Shown one piece after another: positions 9,884-29,358 of a stretch of 33,874 nt of DNA (the first letter of the stretch is position 1; every line of letters starts with the position of its first letter). The DNA comes from a virus. The stretch lies in the IMG/VR virus record IMGVR_UViG_3300027971_000010, positions 1-33,874 of that record. One strand, 5' to 3'. The notes under the pieces were generated by a model. The model had not been told where the DNA came from. It searched no databases and was given only the letters and a program-made list of their open reading frames with translations. The position numbers were made by a program, and so were the translations under genes.

Positions 9884-12007
9884 ATGAAGCAATTAATTAC
9901 AATTTTACTTTGTTTATTTACTTTGTTTGCAGAAGCACAGGTGAACACGAATGACACAAACAAGTATTTCAAATCTTATGACTATGGTTTCAGTTATAAA
10001 AGATTACAGGCACGTGAAGCATTTATAATGCCTACAGATACGGTTATTAATAAACTTGGTGCTGTATCACTTAACGGAAATATTTATTTAGGTAATGGTG
10101 TTAAATGGACATCAATCGGTGGCGGAACAACAATTGACACAACATCACTTAGCAACAGAATCAACCAACGCATTGATTCATTAAGACGCAGAAGCGACAG
10201 TGTTTTTGCACGTAAAAATGGAGTGTTTGTATTTCAATACAAAGATAGTATTGGCGGAACAACAATAGATACAACAAGTTTAAGCAACAGAATAAATTTA
10301 AAAATTGATTCGTTAAAACGTAGCAATGATAGTGTTTATGCTTATAAAAATGGAACAAGAGTTTTTCAGTTTAAAGATAGTGTTGGCGGTGGTGGTGGAG
10401 ATTTTTGGAAAACAAGTGGGACAACTGATTTAACTAATAATGTAACAATTAGAAGTGATAATAAAATAAATTTTAATGGAATAGATGGAGAGACAAGAGC
10501 ATTTAATGTAAATGCTGATAGCATAGCTTTTACAACAACAAACAATTCTAATTATATTTATTTTACTGGATTAAATTATACAACTGACACAACAACATAC
10601 AAACCATTAGCAATTGATAATACTGGAAAATTAGCACCATTAGAATCTTGGGTAAGTGGTGGGGGTGGTCCTGCTATTGATACAACAAATCAATTTGTTA
10701 AAAGATTAACACGAACACCAGGCAAAGATTCAATAATTTATTTTGTAGGTGCAAATCGGTTTGCAATCAAAGACAGTGTTGGAACTAATCCTGCACCTGT
10801 TGGATATTATGGTTCGTTTTCAGATAGTACAACACAAACTGCGGCATTGATAAACACTGCTTATGGTGTAAAATTAGGAGTAACTGATTTATCAAATGGA
10901 GTAACAATTGCAAATAATACAAGAATAAAAATTGCAAACGCTGGAATTTACAACATACAATTTTCTTTGCAACTTGAAAAATCGGGTGGCAGTGGCAATA
11001 TGATTGCAGATATTTGGTTAAGAAAAAACGGTGTTAATTTAAACGGCACAACAGGGAAGGTTGTATTGACAGGTAGTGCAAATGCATCGCCTGTTATAGC
11101 AGCATGGAATTATGTTATTGCAGTTAGTAGTAATGATTCTTTGGAGTTGATGTGGGCAACAAGCAATGACAATGTTGTTATAAAAGCAACTGCTGCTACA
11201 TCCCCACACCCTTCAATTCCATCTGCAATTTTAACTGTTACACAACAAAGTGGAATAATGGCAGGAACAGGAGTAAGTCCATTAGATACAGCAAATATGC
11301 TTAGTCCATACATACGTACAAACGTTGCAAATGCATCAATTGCAACTAAGGTAAACATCAGTGATACAGCAAATATGCTTACAAATTATGCTCGTACTAA
11401 TACTGTAAATGCATCAATTGCAACTAAGGTAAATATTACAGATGCAAATCAAACTATTTCTGCATTTCAATATTTAGGCAGTTCAATAAAGTTTTTTCCT
11501 ATAGGTGTTAATTCATTTATTCAAGCAACAACTAACTTGCAATTTATTAATACTAGAATATTTCTAACAGCTATTTATGTACCAACAACAACAACTGTTA
11601 CAGGTGTAAAATGGATTACAGGTAGTGCTGGTACTGCTTATGTTGGTAATGCTAATTATAACGGTATTGCATTGTATAGTTATAATGTTGGTACAGGGTT
11701 ATGTACTAGAATTGATTCTACTGCATCTGATGCAAACACTTGGACAACAGCAGGTTTTAATTCGAAAGCATTTGTAACAACTGCATCATTATCTCAAGGA
11801 GTTTATTATTTGGCAGCAATATGTAATGGTACTGCAACAACCTTTCCATCTATTGTGCAAACAGTTCAACAATCAGCAAATACAACTTATGATTTTACAT
11901 CTCCTGCAAAATTAACAGGTAATTCAAATGGTACAGTTTCACCAGCATCATTTAATCTATCAACAGTAACAGTAACAACAAATACACCAGTAATCGCATT
12001 ATATTAA
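9884..12007 (+). CDS. Tail fibre / receptor-binding protein with N-terminal signal peptide
   Basis: This 707-residue protein begins with a clear signal-peptide-like sequence (K3, hydrophobic core, A-E-A|Q near residue 19). Then come two 44-residue repeats (residues about 80-167) with heptad-like RIDSL/DSVF segments, a glycine-rich hinge, a beta region, a C1q/TNF-like beta-sandwich (about residues 310-456, ending SAILTVTQQ), two 26-residue helical repeats (about 468-519), and a beta-rich C-terminal domain (about 530-707) ending in VIALY, the probable receptor-binding tip. Such multi-domain layouts are typical of fibres. A signal peptide on a virion protein is odd. Codon use shifts toward T-ending codons after about 10430, unlike the A-ending preference elsewhere, which suggests module exchange. 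Confidence 0.8.
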   Translation: MKQLITILLCLFTLFAEAQVNTNDTNKYFKSYDYGFSYKRLQAREAFIMPTDTVINKLGAVSLNGNIYLGNGVKWTSIGGGTTIDTTSLSNRINQRIDSLRRRSDSVFARKNGVFVFQYKDSIGGTTIDTTSLSNRINLKIDSLKRSNDSVYAYKNGTRVFQFKDSVGGGGGDFWKTSGTTDLTNNVTIRSDNKINFNGIDGETRAFNVNADSIAFTTTNNSNYIYFTGLNYTTDTTTYKPLAIDNTGKLAPLESWVSGGGGPAIDTTNQFVKRLTRTPGKDSIIYFVGANRFAIKDSVGTNPAPVGYYGSFSDSTTQTAALINTAYGVKLGVTDLSNGVTIANNTRIKIANAGIYNIQFSLQLEKSGGSGNMIADIWLRKNGVNLNGTTGKVVLTGSANASPVIAAWNYVIAVSSNDSLELMWATSNDNVVIKATAATSPHPSIPSAILTVTQQSGIMAGTGVSPLDTANMLSPYIRTNVANASIATKVNISDTANMLTNYARTNTVNASIATKVNITDANQTISAFQYLGSSIKFFPIGVNSFIQATTNLQFINTRIFLTAIYVPTTTTVTGVKWITGSAGTAYVGNANYNGIALYSYNVGTGLCTRIDSTASDANTWTTAGFNSKAFVTTASLSQGVYYLAAICNGTATTFPSIVQTVQQSANTTYDFTSPAKLTGNSNGTVSPASFNLSTVTVTTNTPVIALY
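10121..10384 (+). repeat. 132-bp tandem repeat (two copies) in the fibre gene
   Basis: The copies start at 10121 and 10253, exactly 132 bases (44 codons) apart. The proteins match closely (both open GGTTIDTTSLSNRIN and continue through DSV..F to FQYKDSI or FQFKDSV), while many codons differ synonymously. The duplication is therefore old and held by protein-level selection, probably for a coiled-coil shaft segment. Confidence 0.9.
11285..11440 (+). repeat. 78-bp tandem repeat (two copies) in the fibre gene
   Basis: The copies start at 11285 and 11363, 78 bases (26 codons) apart, and encode DTANML...NASIATKVNI units. A 22-base block around the NASIATK codons is nearly identical in both copies, so this duplication looks younger than the 132-bp one. 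It probably sets shaft length before the C-terminal tip. Confidence 0.88.
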
Positions 12008-20178: not shown

Positions 20179-21918
20179 ATGCAATCACTAAAAAATCAAA
20201 TCGAAATAATTAGTTTGATTGAACAATTTGTCAAACTAAAACGAACAGGATCAACTGCAGTTGGATTGTGTCCATTTCATCAAGAAAAAACACCTTCATT
20301 TAATGTATCAAATGACAAAGGTATTTACAAGTGTTTCGGTTGTGGCAGGTCCGGTGATGTAATCCAGTTCGTAATGGAACATAAAAACAAATCTTATTAC
20401 GAATCAATCAAATTCCTTGCAGAAAAATACAATATTGAACTTGAAAAGAATGATAAAAAATATGAACGTCCTGTTCAACGATTAACCAAACTATCAGAAA
20501 GCACCATAAAATACTTTGAAACACGTGGCATAAGCAATAACACCCTGTTACGTTTTAATGTCACAGAATCGTTTGAATGGATGCCGAAAGCACAGGCAGA
20601 AGTTACTGCAATATGTTTCAACTATTATCGTGATGAAGAACTCATCAACATCAAATACAGGGCAAAGGATAAGGATTTTAAACTTGCAAAGAATGCAGAA
20701 CTAATCTTTTACAACATCGATGCAATCAAGGACACACAATCAGTAATAATTGTTGAAGGTGAAATTGATGCACTTACATTGTATGAATGCGGATATTACA
20801 ATGTTGTATCTGTTCCAAATGGTGCAGGTAATAACCTGCAATATCTTGACAACTGTTATAAGTATTTTGAAAATAAAACAAGGGTAATGATTGCCACAGA
20901 CAATGATGATCCAGGCAATAACCTACGTGAAGAACTTGCAAGAAGAATCGGCAAAGAAAAATGTTACAAAGTTTTATATCCTGATGATTGCAAAGATTTT
21001 AATGATGTACTTGTAAAACATGGTAAGGCAATTGTGGCAAATGTTATTGAACTGGCAACGTGCTTTCCTATTGAAGGCATTCACACAATGGAAGACATGT
21101 ATGAAGATGTAAAAAACTATTATGAAAACGGTTATCCAAAAGGTTATGAATCACACATTCCTGTTCTTGATGAATATATTACATTTGCCGGCGGACAGAT
21201 CACAATGATAACAGGTGTTCCTGGATCCGGAAAATCCGAATTTCTTGATTACATTATGACTAAACTTACAATGCATCATCAATGGCATTGGGGGGTTTGT
21301 TCTTTTGAGAATCAACCATCTGCATTTCACGTCACAAAATTACAAGAAAAGGTGACAGGCAAATCATTTGCATTTAGAAAAAATGATTCACACAGATTGA
21401 ATAAAGATGAATTTGATTACAGCATTGGTGTTATTGATCAGTATTTTAGTTTTATAAACATTAATAAAGTTGATGTTACTGTTGATGGAATCATTGACAA
21501 GGCACGTGAACTGGTCCATCGTAAAGGAATCAAAGGTCTTATCATTGATCCTTGGAATTACATTGAACACAAAGTTCCACCAAACCAAACAGAAACACAA
21601 TACATCAGTGAATCATTAACAAAGTTTAAAGCATTTGCATTGCTTTCAAACATACATATTTTCATTGTTGCACACCCTACAAAGATTGCAAAAAGTAAAG
21701 ATACAGGTGAATATGAAGTTCCAACACTTTATAACATCAGCGGATCAGCGCATTTCTTTAATAAGACAGACAACGGTATCTGTATGTGGCGGTCATTTAA
21801 GAAAAATGAAGTTACATGCTATATTCAAAAAGTAAGATATTCGTGGCTCGGAAAGGTTGGAAATGTATCTTTTACATACAATGTTGACACAAGACAATAC
21901 ATACAAACAAATTTTTAA
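20179..21918 (+). CDS. DNA primase-helicase (T7 gp4-like)
   Basis: This 579-residue fusion makes RNA primers and unwinds the fork. Residues 31-55 are a CHC2-type zinc finger (C31-x2-H34, C52-x2-C55). A TOPRIM domain follows, with E193 in VEGEIDAL and D241/D243/D244 in ATDNDDPG. The helicase half is a RecA-fold with Walker A GVPGSGKS at 346-353 and a Walker B-like GLIIDPWNYIEH near residue 455. The order (zinc finger, primase, helicase) and length match T7 gp4-like enzymes. It directly precedes the origin-bearing replication gene by 2 bases. Expression depends on read-through of the terminator at 20131. Confidence 0.93.
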   Translation: MQSLKNQIEIISLIEQFVKLKRTGSTAVGLCPFHQEKTPSFNVSNDKGIYKCFGCGRSGDVIQFVMEHKNKSYYESIKFLAEKYNIELEKNDKKYERPVQRLTKLSESTIKYFETRGISNNTLLRFNVTESFEWMPKAQAEVTAICFNYYRDEELINIKYRAKDKDFKLAKNAELIFYNIDAIKDTQSVIIVEGEIDALTLYECGYYNVVSVPNGAGNNLQYLDNCYKYFENKTRVMIATDNDDPGNNLREELARRIGKEKCYKVLYPDDCKDFNDVLVKHGKAIVANVIELATCFPIEGIHTMEDMYEDVKNYYENGYPKGYESHIPVLDEYITFAGGQITMITGVPGSGKSEFLDYIMTKLTMHHQWHWGVCSFENQPSAFHVTKLQEKVTGKSFAFRKNDSHRLNKDEFDYSIGVIDQYFSFININKVDVTVDGIIDKARELVHRKGIKGLIIDPWNYIEHKVPPNQTETQYISESLTKFKAFALLSNIHIFIVAHPTKIAKSKDTGEYEVPTLYNISGSAHFFNKTDNGICMWRSFKKNEVTCYIQKVRYSWLGKVGNVSFTYNVDTRQYIQTNF

Positions 21919-21920
21919 TT

Positions 21921-22382
21921 ATGACAAAAGACACATTTTATTTCACACATGATTTTAATGCCAGGACCGATGTAAAGATAAAAAAATTGATACAAAAACA
22001 TGGTCTTTTAGGATATGGAATTTACTGGGCATTGGTTGAAGATTTATACAATAATGCGAACGCATTGCCATTGGATTGCGAATGCATTGCGTTCGATATG
22101 CGAACGCATTGCGACATAATTAAGAGTGTAATACATGACTTTGACCTGTTTATAATAGGTAAGAAAACATTTAAATCAAACAGCATAGAAAAGCGGTTAA
22201 ATGAAAGAAAAGATAAATCTATAAAAGCAAGTGAATCAGCGAATAAAAGGTGGAAAAATGCGAACGCATTGCGACCGCAATGCGAACGCAATGCTATAAA
22301 GGAAAGGAAAGGAAAGGAAATAAAAAAGAAAGAGAATGATTTTTCGCCTTCGGCTATTTTTCAAAAACCTATTGTTGTTTAG
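21921..22382 (+). CDS. DUF4373-like replication protein containing iterons
   Basis: This 153-residue protein starts with a pattern typical of the DUF4373 (Lin1244/Lin1753-like) N-terminal domain: YFTHDFNARTDVKIKKLIQK, then HGLLGYGIYWALVEDLY, a winged-helix-like domain found in phage replisome organisers. The rest is short compared with usual members (often over 200 residues): a basic K/R/E-rich linker and an end with no clear C-terminal domain. The gene contains five 22-bp-spaced repeats (22054-22119 and 22258-22301) that are read in different frames, so they are kept for DNA function. A replication initiator with its origin inside the gene, as in lambda O, is the best explanation (inference). 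It follows the primase-helicase by 2 bases. Confidence 0.8.
   Translation: MTKDTFYFTHDFNARTDVKIKKLIQKHGLLGYGIYWALVEDLYNNANALPLDCECIAFDMRTHCDIIKSVIHDFDLFIIGKKTFKSNSIEKRLNERKDKSIKASESANKRWKNANALRPQCERNAIKERKGKEIKKKENDFSPSAIFQKPIVV
22054..22119 (+). repeat. Iteron-like repeats, first cluster (three copies, 22-bp spacing)
   Basis: Copies of the core ATGCGAACGCATTGC start at 22054, 22076 and 22098, exactly 22 bp apart. The first and third are perfect over 15 bases; the middle one has two changes. An 8-bp inverted repeat (22088-22095 with 22101-22108) lies between copies 2 and 3. Because 22 is not a multiple of 3, the copies are translated in three different frames, so selection is on DNA. Confidence 0.9.
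22258..22301 (+). repeat. Iteron-like repeats, second cluster (two copies, 22-bp spacing)
   Basis: Copies start at 22258 (perfect core; 18 bases ATGCGAACGCATTGCGAC identical to copy 3) and 22280 (one change), again 22 bp apart. Between them CGCATTGCG (22265-22273) and CGCAATGCG (22276-22284) form a perfect 9-bp inverted repeat with a 2-base centre. Confidence 0.9.
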
Positions 22383-22421: not shown

Positions 22422-22916
22422 TTGAAAAATAAAAACGATATTATTTCAGAACTTTATGTGAGCAAAGAAGTAAATGAATTGATTAAGAAAATTAAGCCAG
22501 TTGAACTGCAAGATGATCTTAAGCAATATGCATTCACCGTCCTTTGTGAAAAGTCACCTGAATTCATTATCGAACTGAACAGCAAAAAACAATTGAAATT
22601 CTTTTTGGTCAAGATTATTTCAAATTCAGTATTCAGCAACAGGTCCGGATTCTTAACACAACACAAACTAAATGATGAACTTAATGTTGATGTGATGGAA
22701 CAGCAAGTGGATTCGTCAGACAACTACCATGAACTGATTGACAAATGTGTAAACGAATCAAAGAATCTGTATTGGTATAATCAAGAACTGCTAAATCTTT
22801 ATTCAATACATGGATCATACAGGGCAGTATCTAACATAACCAAAATACCAGTGAAATCAATTTACAACGCAATCAAGAAAGCAAAACAACAAATAAAAAA
22901 ATCATTATGGAAATAA
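22422..22916 (+). CDS. Sigma-70-like / HTH transcription factor
   Basis: This 164-residue protein has a helical N-terminal region and a C-terminal helix-turn-helix: YWYNQELLNLYSIHGSYRAV, then SNITKIPVKSIYNAIKKAKQ (residues about 115-156), which resembles region 4 of sigma factors. Similar sigma-like proteins are carried by Bacteroidota phages. It is the first gene after promoter P3 and starts at a TTG (22422); no ATG gives a full-length product. It may direct polymerase to the TGACACA-N14-ATATTTAT motifs near head genes, though that link is an inference. It could instead be a late activator that binds DNA without being a sigma factor. Confidence 0.65.
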   Translation: MKNKNDIISELYVSKEVNELIKKIKPVELQDDLKQYAFTVLCEKSPEFIIELNSKKQLKFFLVKIISNSVFSNRSGFLTQHKLNDELNVDVMEQQVDSSDNYHELIDKCVNESKNLYWYNQELLNLYSIHGSYRAVSNITKIPVKSIYNAIKKAKQQIKKSLWK

Positions 22917-28073: not shown

Positions 28074-28181
28074 ATGTGGCGTGTTTACTTATTTGAATTT
28101 ATTGTTGCTGTTGTCATTTCAGTATTGTGGGTGCATCTAATTGATAAATCAAAAGACAACAAAGAAGATGAAACAGATTAA
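28074..28181 (+). CDS. 35-residue single-span membrane peptide
   Basis: The ATG at 28074 starts 3 bases after the methyltransferase stop and the frame ends at 28181, overlapping the terL start by 14 bases. The product has one transmembrane helix (about residues 4-23) and an acidic, charged C-terminus (KSKDNKEDETD). The close spacing on both sides and the clean membrane topology support a real gene. Confidence 0.6.
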   Translation: MWRVYLFEFIVAVVISVLWVHLIDKSKDNKEDETD

Positions 28182-29358
28182 CTATACAAGACCATTCCTT
28201 TACGAATATCAGAAAGCAATCCTGAATTCAAATGCAAGATTCACAGTCACAGAAGCATCGACAAAGGTAGGTAAAACTGCCAGTCATATCATTTGGTTAT
28301 TTGAACAAGCATTGACATTAAAAGAAAATCAATCTGTTTGGTGGGTTGCACCTGTTTATTCACAGGCGGAAATTGCGTTCAATAGAATGAAAGCACAGGT
28401 GACGGATAAGAACTTCTTTAAAGCGAATGAAACAAAGTTAAAGTTAACACTGCCAACAGGTGCAATCATACAATTCAAATCTGCAGAAAAACCGGACAAC
28501 CTTTATGGTGATGACGTTTATGCCTGTGTATTTGATGAGTTTACCCGGTCACGTGAAGAAGCATGGTTTGCACTTCGTTCAACATTAACCGCCACAAATG
28601 GTTGGTGTAAGTTTATCGGTAACGTAAAGGGTAAAAAGAATTGGGGTTATCGTATGGCACAACGTGCAAAGCAAGGTGAACAGAACTTTGAACACTTCAA
28701 AATAACTGCTTATGATGCAGCACGTGAAGGTCTTTTGACAATGGAAGAAATTGAACAGGCGAAACGTGATCTGCCTGAATCAGTGTTTAAAGAATTATAC
28801 CTGGCAGAAGCAGCAGAAGATGGAAGTAATCCGTTTGGGGTTTCATTTATTCATCAATGTACATACCCGATGACATCAGGTCCTGCCATCTGTTACGGCA
28901 TTGACCTTGCAAAGTCAAGTGATCACACAGTGATTATTGGATTGGATAAGAACGGCAGTGTATGTGATTACAGAAGATTTCAAAAAGATTGGCGACAAAC
29001 TACGCAAGAAATACTTTCCTTACCAAATGCACAGATTGCAATTGATTCGACAGGTGTCGGTGATCCCATTGCAGAAGACATTGCAAGGGTTAAAGATGTT
29101 GAACTATTCAAGTTTACTTCATCGAGCAAACAACAGATCATGGAAGGGTTGGCACTTGCAATTCAACAAAGGCGAATCACATTTCCTGAAGGTCAAATCA
29201 AAGATGAACTTGAACAATTTGAATTTGAGTACACACGAACTGGTGTTCGTTATTCTGCACCTGTAGGTTTGCATGATGACTGTGTTTGTGCATTAGCACT
29301 GGCATGGCATAAATTCAGGACATCAGCAGGCATGTCCGGTCATTATGCAATAATTTAA
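28168..29358 (+). CDS. terL: Large terminase subunit
   Basis: This 396-residue motor packages DNA into the prohead. The ATPase half has Walker A ASTKVGKT (residues 30-37) and Walker B VYACVFDE with D123-E124. The RNase-H-like nuclease half has acidic residues D246 (CYGIDLAKSSDH), D293 (AIDSTGVGD) and H369-D370-D371 (LHDDCVCAL). The length is short but within the range of compact terminases. The ATG at 28168 is preferred over a TTG at 28141, which is inside the upstream small gene. It is followed by tail genes. The 127-base overlap and circular map suggest headful packaging, but the packaging type cannot be read from the sequence alone. Confidence 0.93.
   Translation: MKQINYTRPFLYEYQKAILNSNARFTVTEASTKVGKTASHIIWLFEQALTLKENQSVWWVAPVYSQAEIAFNRMKAQVTDKNFFKANETKLKLTLPTGAIIQFKSAEKPDNLYGDDVYACVFDEFTRSREEAWFALRSTLTATNGWCKFIGNVKGKKNWGYRMAQRAKQGEQNFEHFKITAYDAAREGLLTMEEIEQAKRDLPESVFKELYLAEAAEDGSNPFGVSFIHQCTYPMTSGPAICYGIDLAKSSDHTVIIGLDKNGSVCDYRRFQKDWRQTTQEILSLPNAQIAIDSTGVGDPIAEDIARVKDVELFKFTSSSKQQIMEGLALAIQQRRITFPEGQIKDELEQFEFEYTRTGVRYSAPVGLHDDCVCALALAWHKFRTSAGMSGHYAII

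Follow-up and report, generated by a model that had tools for sequence, protein, structure and literature searches.

A probable replication origin embedded in the DUF4373 initiator gene of a phage, with palindromic arrays phased at 11 bp

Replication origins embedded in the gene of their own initiator are known in kind from lambda O, SPP1 gene 38 and pSK41 rep. The lambda origin, in gene O, is made of dyad-symmetric iterons followed by an A+T-rich region that has nearly all its purines on one strand (PMC6022878, PMC5043065). In SPP1, oriL lies within gene 38, which holds direct repeats and an A+T-rich unwinding element and encodes the origin-binding protein gp38 (PMC6316719). In the case of pSK41 rep, the N-terminal winged helix of the initiator binds boxes situated in the middle of the gene, the origin DNA encodes the linker, and the C-terminal domain contacts the host machinery (PMC5703833). 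We found no described origin for the DUF4373 family: a literature search, which left most subscription journals outside its coverage, returned no paper linking DUF4373 or Lin1244 with replication or an origin.

The stretch analysed here, called the window, is the 33,874 nucleotides of the IMG/VR virus record IMGVR_UViG_3300027971_000010. We propose, as a very likely reading in which both the origin activity and the binding are inferred, that it contains a replication origin lying inside the gene of its own initiator, where a DUF4373 protein binds arrays of GCAWTGC palindromes and the adjacent purine-biased DNA opens. The closest known architecture is that of pSK41 rep: as in the pSK41-type RepA_N initiators, a winged-helix initiator gene carries the sites inside its own coding sequence. 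Unlike pSK41, the window gene has two clusters of sites, one of them over the HTH-coding part, an 11-bp phase and a 5-bp purine array, and its protein has neither a C-terminal domain nor a match to PF06970. The presence of iterons and of an A+T-rich, purine-biased region inside the initiator gene would also fit, by analogy, a lambda-O-like architecture; lambda has four iterons with inverted repeats of 18-19 bp bound by O dimers, whereas the window has 7-bp palindromes at 11 bp, two clusters and another protein family. The likeness to SPP1, in which another origin, oriR, lies about 13 kbp away, is architectural and involves no sequence comparison. The genes concerned are:

20179-21918, + strand: primase/helicase gene (CHC2 zinc finger, Toprim, DnaB_C), directly upstream of the initiator gene with a 2-bp gap
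21921-22382, + strand: initiator gene, 153 aa, with the DUF4373/Lin1244_N winged helix at about residues 18-85
22422-22916, + strand: 164-aa ORF of unknown function, 3' of the proposed origin, without Pfam or PHROG match

The initiator protein meets the membership of DUF4373/Lin1244_N with the Pfam profile (PF14297, E 9e-10, 39.6 bits against a curated cut-off of 25) and matches PHROG 2562, 'replication initiation protein', with E 2e-13; membership of RepA_N (PF06970) is not met, a Pfam scan at E 0.1 giving no match. The AlphaFold2 model, built from 61 sequences (mean pLDDT 84.9), contains a helix (18-44), a helix-turn-helix (53-60 and 64-73), a strand and a long helix (87-112) that ends in S-A-x-x-R-W, followed by a low-confidence tail (113-153, mostly 58-77). 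A Foldseek comparison of this model with the PDB gave no match below E 1e-3, the insignificant matches being mostly to winged-helix proteins with GntR, CodY and Crp types as the nearest folds, and no relative was found when solved structures were searched by sequence. Short as it is, the window protein has no counterpart to the C-terminal region of its longer relatives; with this region absent, the route by which it would recruit the helicase is not evident and remains unclear. The order of primase/helicase followed by DUF4373 gene is kept in close relatives. In other DUF4373 phages a helicase or helicase loader gene adjoins, and in EF62phi and L130 the DUF4373 gene itself carries a C-terminal DnaB_2 replication domain. 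The family can be multi-copy in chromosomes, as seen in a genome from a Bacteroidota sample (G246) with seven DUF4373 matches above the cut-off.

The elements of the proposed origin are:

22054-22112, + strand: iteron cluster 1, 11-bp units from 22054, with GCATTGC cores at 22062, 22084 and 22106
22258-22294, + strand: iteron cluster 2, GCAWTGC cores at 22266, 22277 and 22288, 11 bp apart
22295-22302, + strand: TATAAAGG junction, beginning 7 bp past the first base of the last core
22298-22320, + strand: AAAGG 5-bp array of 4.6 copies, within the purine-biased 22298-22339

A sequence-only reading of this DNA had described five copies of a repeat, at 22054, 22076, 22098, 22258 and 22280, with steps of 22 bp within each cluster. 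The copies are present as described: the 15-mer has exact copies at 22054, 22098 and 22258, a copy with two mismatches at 22076 and a copy with one mismatch at 22280, and all seven matches with at most three mismatches in the window fall inside the initiator gene (0.87 expected by chance; none of 100 shuffles reaches seven). The 22-bp steps are real, but the basic unit is 11 bp, so that 22 is twice 11; Tandem Repeats Finder assigns a period of 11 to each cluster, and pairs of GCAWTGC spaced 11 bp occur eight times in the whole window, always inside the initiator gene, against 0.74 expected. The 22-bp unit was accordingly replaced by GCAWTGC palindromes one helical turn (11 bp) apart, in two clusters separated by about 150 bp, cluster 1 having additional degenerate cores at 22073 and 22095. 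Both inverted repeats reported earlier, TGCGTTCG-ATATG-CGAACGCA and CGCATTGCG-AC-CGCAATGCG, were recovered. Hairpins do fold in single-stranded DNA (z -2.1 and -4.2), a reading that we rejected, the phased and the noncoding arrays being better explained by protein sites; as to an RNA element, no Rfam match was obtained. Elsewhere in the window, a 132-bp tandem duplication (10120-10389, two copies, 73% matches) lies within the ORF 9884-12007.

Cluster 2 leads at a fixed distance into TATAAAGG and the AAAGG array, and the extended junction pattern has a single match in the window. The stretch after the repeats had been called AT-rich; it is (75% A+T against 66% for the window), but its more striking property is strand bias, no other 42-nt window of the record being as purine-biased as 22298-22339. 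A GC-skew analysis, suggested for a genome taken to be circular, gave no informative switch at the site; the record is classed 'linear' and nothing in the analysis points to circularity.

Could selection have acted on the protein instead, on a repetitive Asn/Ala/Lys/Glu linker, with the DNA likeness of the repeats as a by-product? Cluster 2 encodes the start of the low-confidence, probably disordered tail, and the peptides NANAL and KERKGKE recur. In the winged helix, the turn and helix-turn-helix are encoded by cluster 1. The copies in the window are read as NANAL (22054 and 22258), MRTHC (22098) and CERNA (22280), which is the frame difference originally claimed, and the reading of one DNA word in three frames, as NANAL, MRTHC or QCERN, contradicts a protein-level cause. 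Two tests on relatives stand against it as well. These relatives were fetched from viral contigs and genomes, with only the N-terminal 42 residues as queries after the first search; because these queries exclude the repeats, the relatives so fetched were not selected for them. In 87 dereplicated genes, most of them from the N-terminal queries, the self-match at each lag was compared with a protein-preserving shuffle of synonymous codons, and only lags 5/10/15/20/25 and 11/22/33 clearly exceed this null (mean z 1.6, 1.6 and 1.1 at lags 5, 10 and 15; 1.5, 1.3 and 0.8 at lags 11, 22 and 33; little elsewhere). A second sample of 27 loci obtained with the Pfam profile, nearly all from Bacteroidota chromosomes and including distant members and one doubtful locus (L405), has the same lag peaks; 200 neighbouring control genes have none, all their means lying between -0.1 and 0.2. 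Codon entropy, expressed relative to background over 139 close relatives (about 43 effective), is 0.35 for the iteron codons against 0.89 for the other codons (p 6e-13). Given also the arrays in noncoding DNA described below, selection on the protein is scarcely credible as the source of the repeats.

The earlier claim that the repeats are kept as DNA and not as protein is therefore upheld: the relatives hold the repeats and their 11/22-bp phase, while other synonymous sites and the encoded residues vary, and the same arrangement is found in relatives from several bacterial phyla. The opposite pattern, amino acids kept with repeats or spacing lost, would have refuted the claim and was looked for in the relatives. 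Among dereplicated relatives carrying the junction, its spacing of 7 bp from the first base of the last core is kept in 30 of 32 with G-type sites and 10 of 13 with A-type sites (types defined below). An embedded origin should have phased repeats inside the initiator gene that are conserved as DNA, which is met, and an adjacent A+T-rich or strand-asymmetric region, which is met as sequence only. In-frame and other variants were also seen in the family: the DUF4373 tail of L156 and L157 has GCAATGC cores 12 bp apart instead of 11, and ATCGCCACCC-, TTCAACCACAG- and GTCATGAC-like repeats occupy the same place in L084 (a gut phage), L097 and the Vibrio loci L087/L088.

The examination of phages sharing the same primase for their DUF4373 gene revealed two arrangements. 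In the five close relatives checked (L414-L418), the gene lies 3' of the primase with the arrays inside. In the sister set, the gene is located upstream of the primase, stops shortly after the RW and contains no array; the syntenic place is instead occupied by noncoding DNA with 11-bp arrays of a third type (GTTATAAC, with Met as residue 107), about 2 kb from the start of the initiator gene. The Met-107 members (15 loci, several near-identical) have TTATAAC-like sites at most 480 bp after the primase gene, members with other residues at 107 mostly lack them there, and nearly all GTTATAAC copies over the loci checked fall in this post-primase stretch. L444 has six GTTATAAC cores, grouped in two clusters with steps of 11, 22 and 23 bp, in a stretch that has stops in all three forward frames.

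These sister phages also bear on the possibility that the arrays are bound by a protein but serve as a transcription operator, for the initiator operon or the 164-aa ORF, and not as an origin. The nearest folds, insignificant as they are, belong to winged-helix regulators, and the noncoding array of L444, which has no in-gene array, is followed by a homologue of the 164-aa ORF, so that an array stands just upstream of homologous ORFs in both L444 and the window. Arrays located inside or after genes, and at the distance from the initiator start found in the sister phages, are however ill-suited to autoregulation; the downstream gene differs in other DUF4373 phages, where it is a helicase loader or a helicase, and a fixed purine array beside the iterons suits an origin better. 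We regard the operator as unlikely.

The main evidence that the initiator protein would read the arrays comes from the covariation of the sites with one residue:

22239-22241, + strand: codon 107 (Ala); throughout the family, this residue predicts the type of site

The relatives carry GCAWTGC ('G') or GTAWTAC ('A') sites, and their consensus has matching changes in both halves of the palindrome with TATAAAGGAAAGG unchanged. The typing was based on counts of 5- and 7-mers in those 226 of 260 unique genes in which the RW landmark is present and the sequence suffices for scoring; 'mixed' calls for cluster 1, some of which arise because weak words such as TACGA occur there, were kept apart and not forced. 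For clusters 1 and 2, 26 genes are A/A, 125 G/G, 32 mixed/G and none A/G or G/A, the remaining scored genes being mixed or without a callable type in at least one cluster. When 173 G and 29 A sequences (about 42 and 14 effective) were compared column by column, the types were told apart by residue 107 with a Jensen-Shannon divergence of 1.0, the next non-iteron column reaching 0.40; by weight, G-type proteins have Ala (95%), Ser (2%) or Leu (2%), and A-type proteins Val or Ile. The best tree, from which the iteron codons and residue 107 were left out, has 12 changes of site type, and residue 107 fits the type in all 12 independent pairs; only one of these pairs is forced by well-supported branches, and a single origin of the A-type is rejected (AU p 0.002). 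The proximity of codon 107 to cluster 2 means that joint inheritance helps to maintain the pairing, but it does not explain a recurrent switch with the same residues. The rule is incomplete, since L488 (Gly-Ala) has GTTATAAC-like sites. In the absence of binding data, this covariation supports a recognition of the arrays by the DUF4373 protein, as cis-acting DNA, without demonstrating it.

The sequence 3' of the array varies greatly among relatives, so the array marks a module boundary, and one may ask whether it is a recombination or packaging site, or a hotspot at which C-terminal domains are swapped between phages. Such a function would leave the match between residue 107 and the sites, and the purine array at a fixed distance, without explanation; as to packaging, the terminase gene of the window lies away from the arrays, at 28141-29358. 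We consider this very improbable and retain the origin.

The DUF1376 proteins, such as those of Acinetobacter phiAC-1 and Vibrio 1.052.A, resemble the DUF4373 proteins in having 11/22-bp lags and, in several members, the same ATGCGAACGCAWTGC sites, and differ from them by their Pfam family (PF07120) and by a downstream array of 7 bp instead of 5 bp. Ten phage DUF1376 genes have lags of 7/14/21 and 11/22/33; several have ATGCGAACGCAWTGC sites in two clusters together with an SAxARW or similar motif, and a helicase, loader or replication protein P gene lies 3' of several. The 11/22-bp lags were seen in L089 (2412-3236), L366, L367, L374 and others from Vibrio and Acinetobacter phages, and the units of the 7-bp array are CCCAATA, ACCAAGA and similar words. 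We suggest tentatively, with slightly less than even confidence, that the DUF4373 and DUF1376 proteins make up a class of phage initiators that is widespread and undescribed. These proteins would read 11-bp-phased palindromes through a helix ending in S-x-x-x-R-W, residue 107 alone would switch their specificity (Ala for GCAWTGC, Val/Ile for GTAWTAC, Met for GTTATAAC), and their origins would be mobile between coding and noncoding positions, with interchangeable opening arrays of 5 or 7 bp.

In the model that we propose for the window, the DUF4373 protein, by its winged helix and the helix ending in S-A-x-x-R-W, would bind the GCAWTGC palindromes of the two clusters. The bound array would strain the adjacent purine-biased TATAAAGG/(AAAGG)n DNA, thereby provoking its opening, and the opened DNA would provide the loading place for the phage primase/helicase encoded just upstream. 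The opening at the AAAGG tract, the loading of the helicase and the firing of the origin are inferred by analogy only. The initial suggestion of a lambda-O-style origin in a DUF4373-type initiator gene gains support from the PF14297 and PHROG 2562 matches, the adjacent primase/helicase, the conservation of the repeats and the noncoding arrays, the origin activity itself being undemonstrated.

In conclusion, our observations provide a testable origin and initiator for many phages and prophages, above all of Bacteroidota but also of Bacillota and Gammaproteobacteria. In these phages and prophages the proteins often bear no annotation beyond a domain of unknown function. The sister phages with coding and noncoding arrays constitute a natural experiment on dual coding. 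If one residue does predict the site, the compatibility of initiator and origin would become predictable from sequence.
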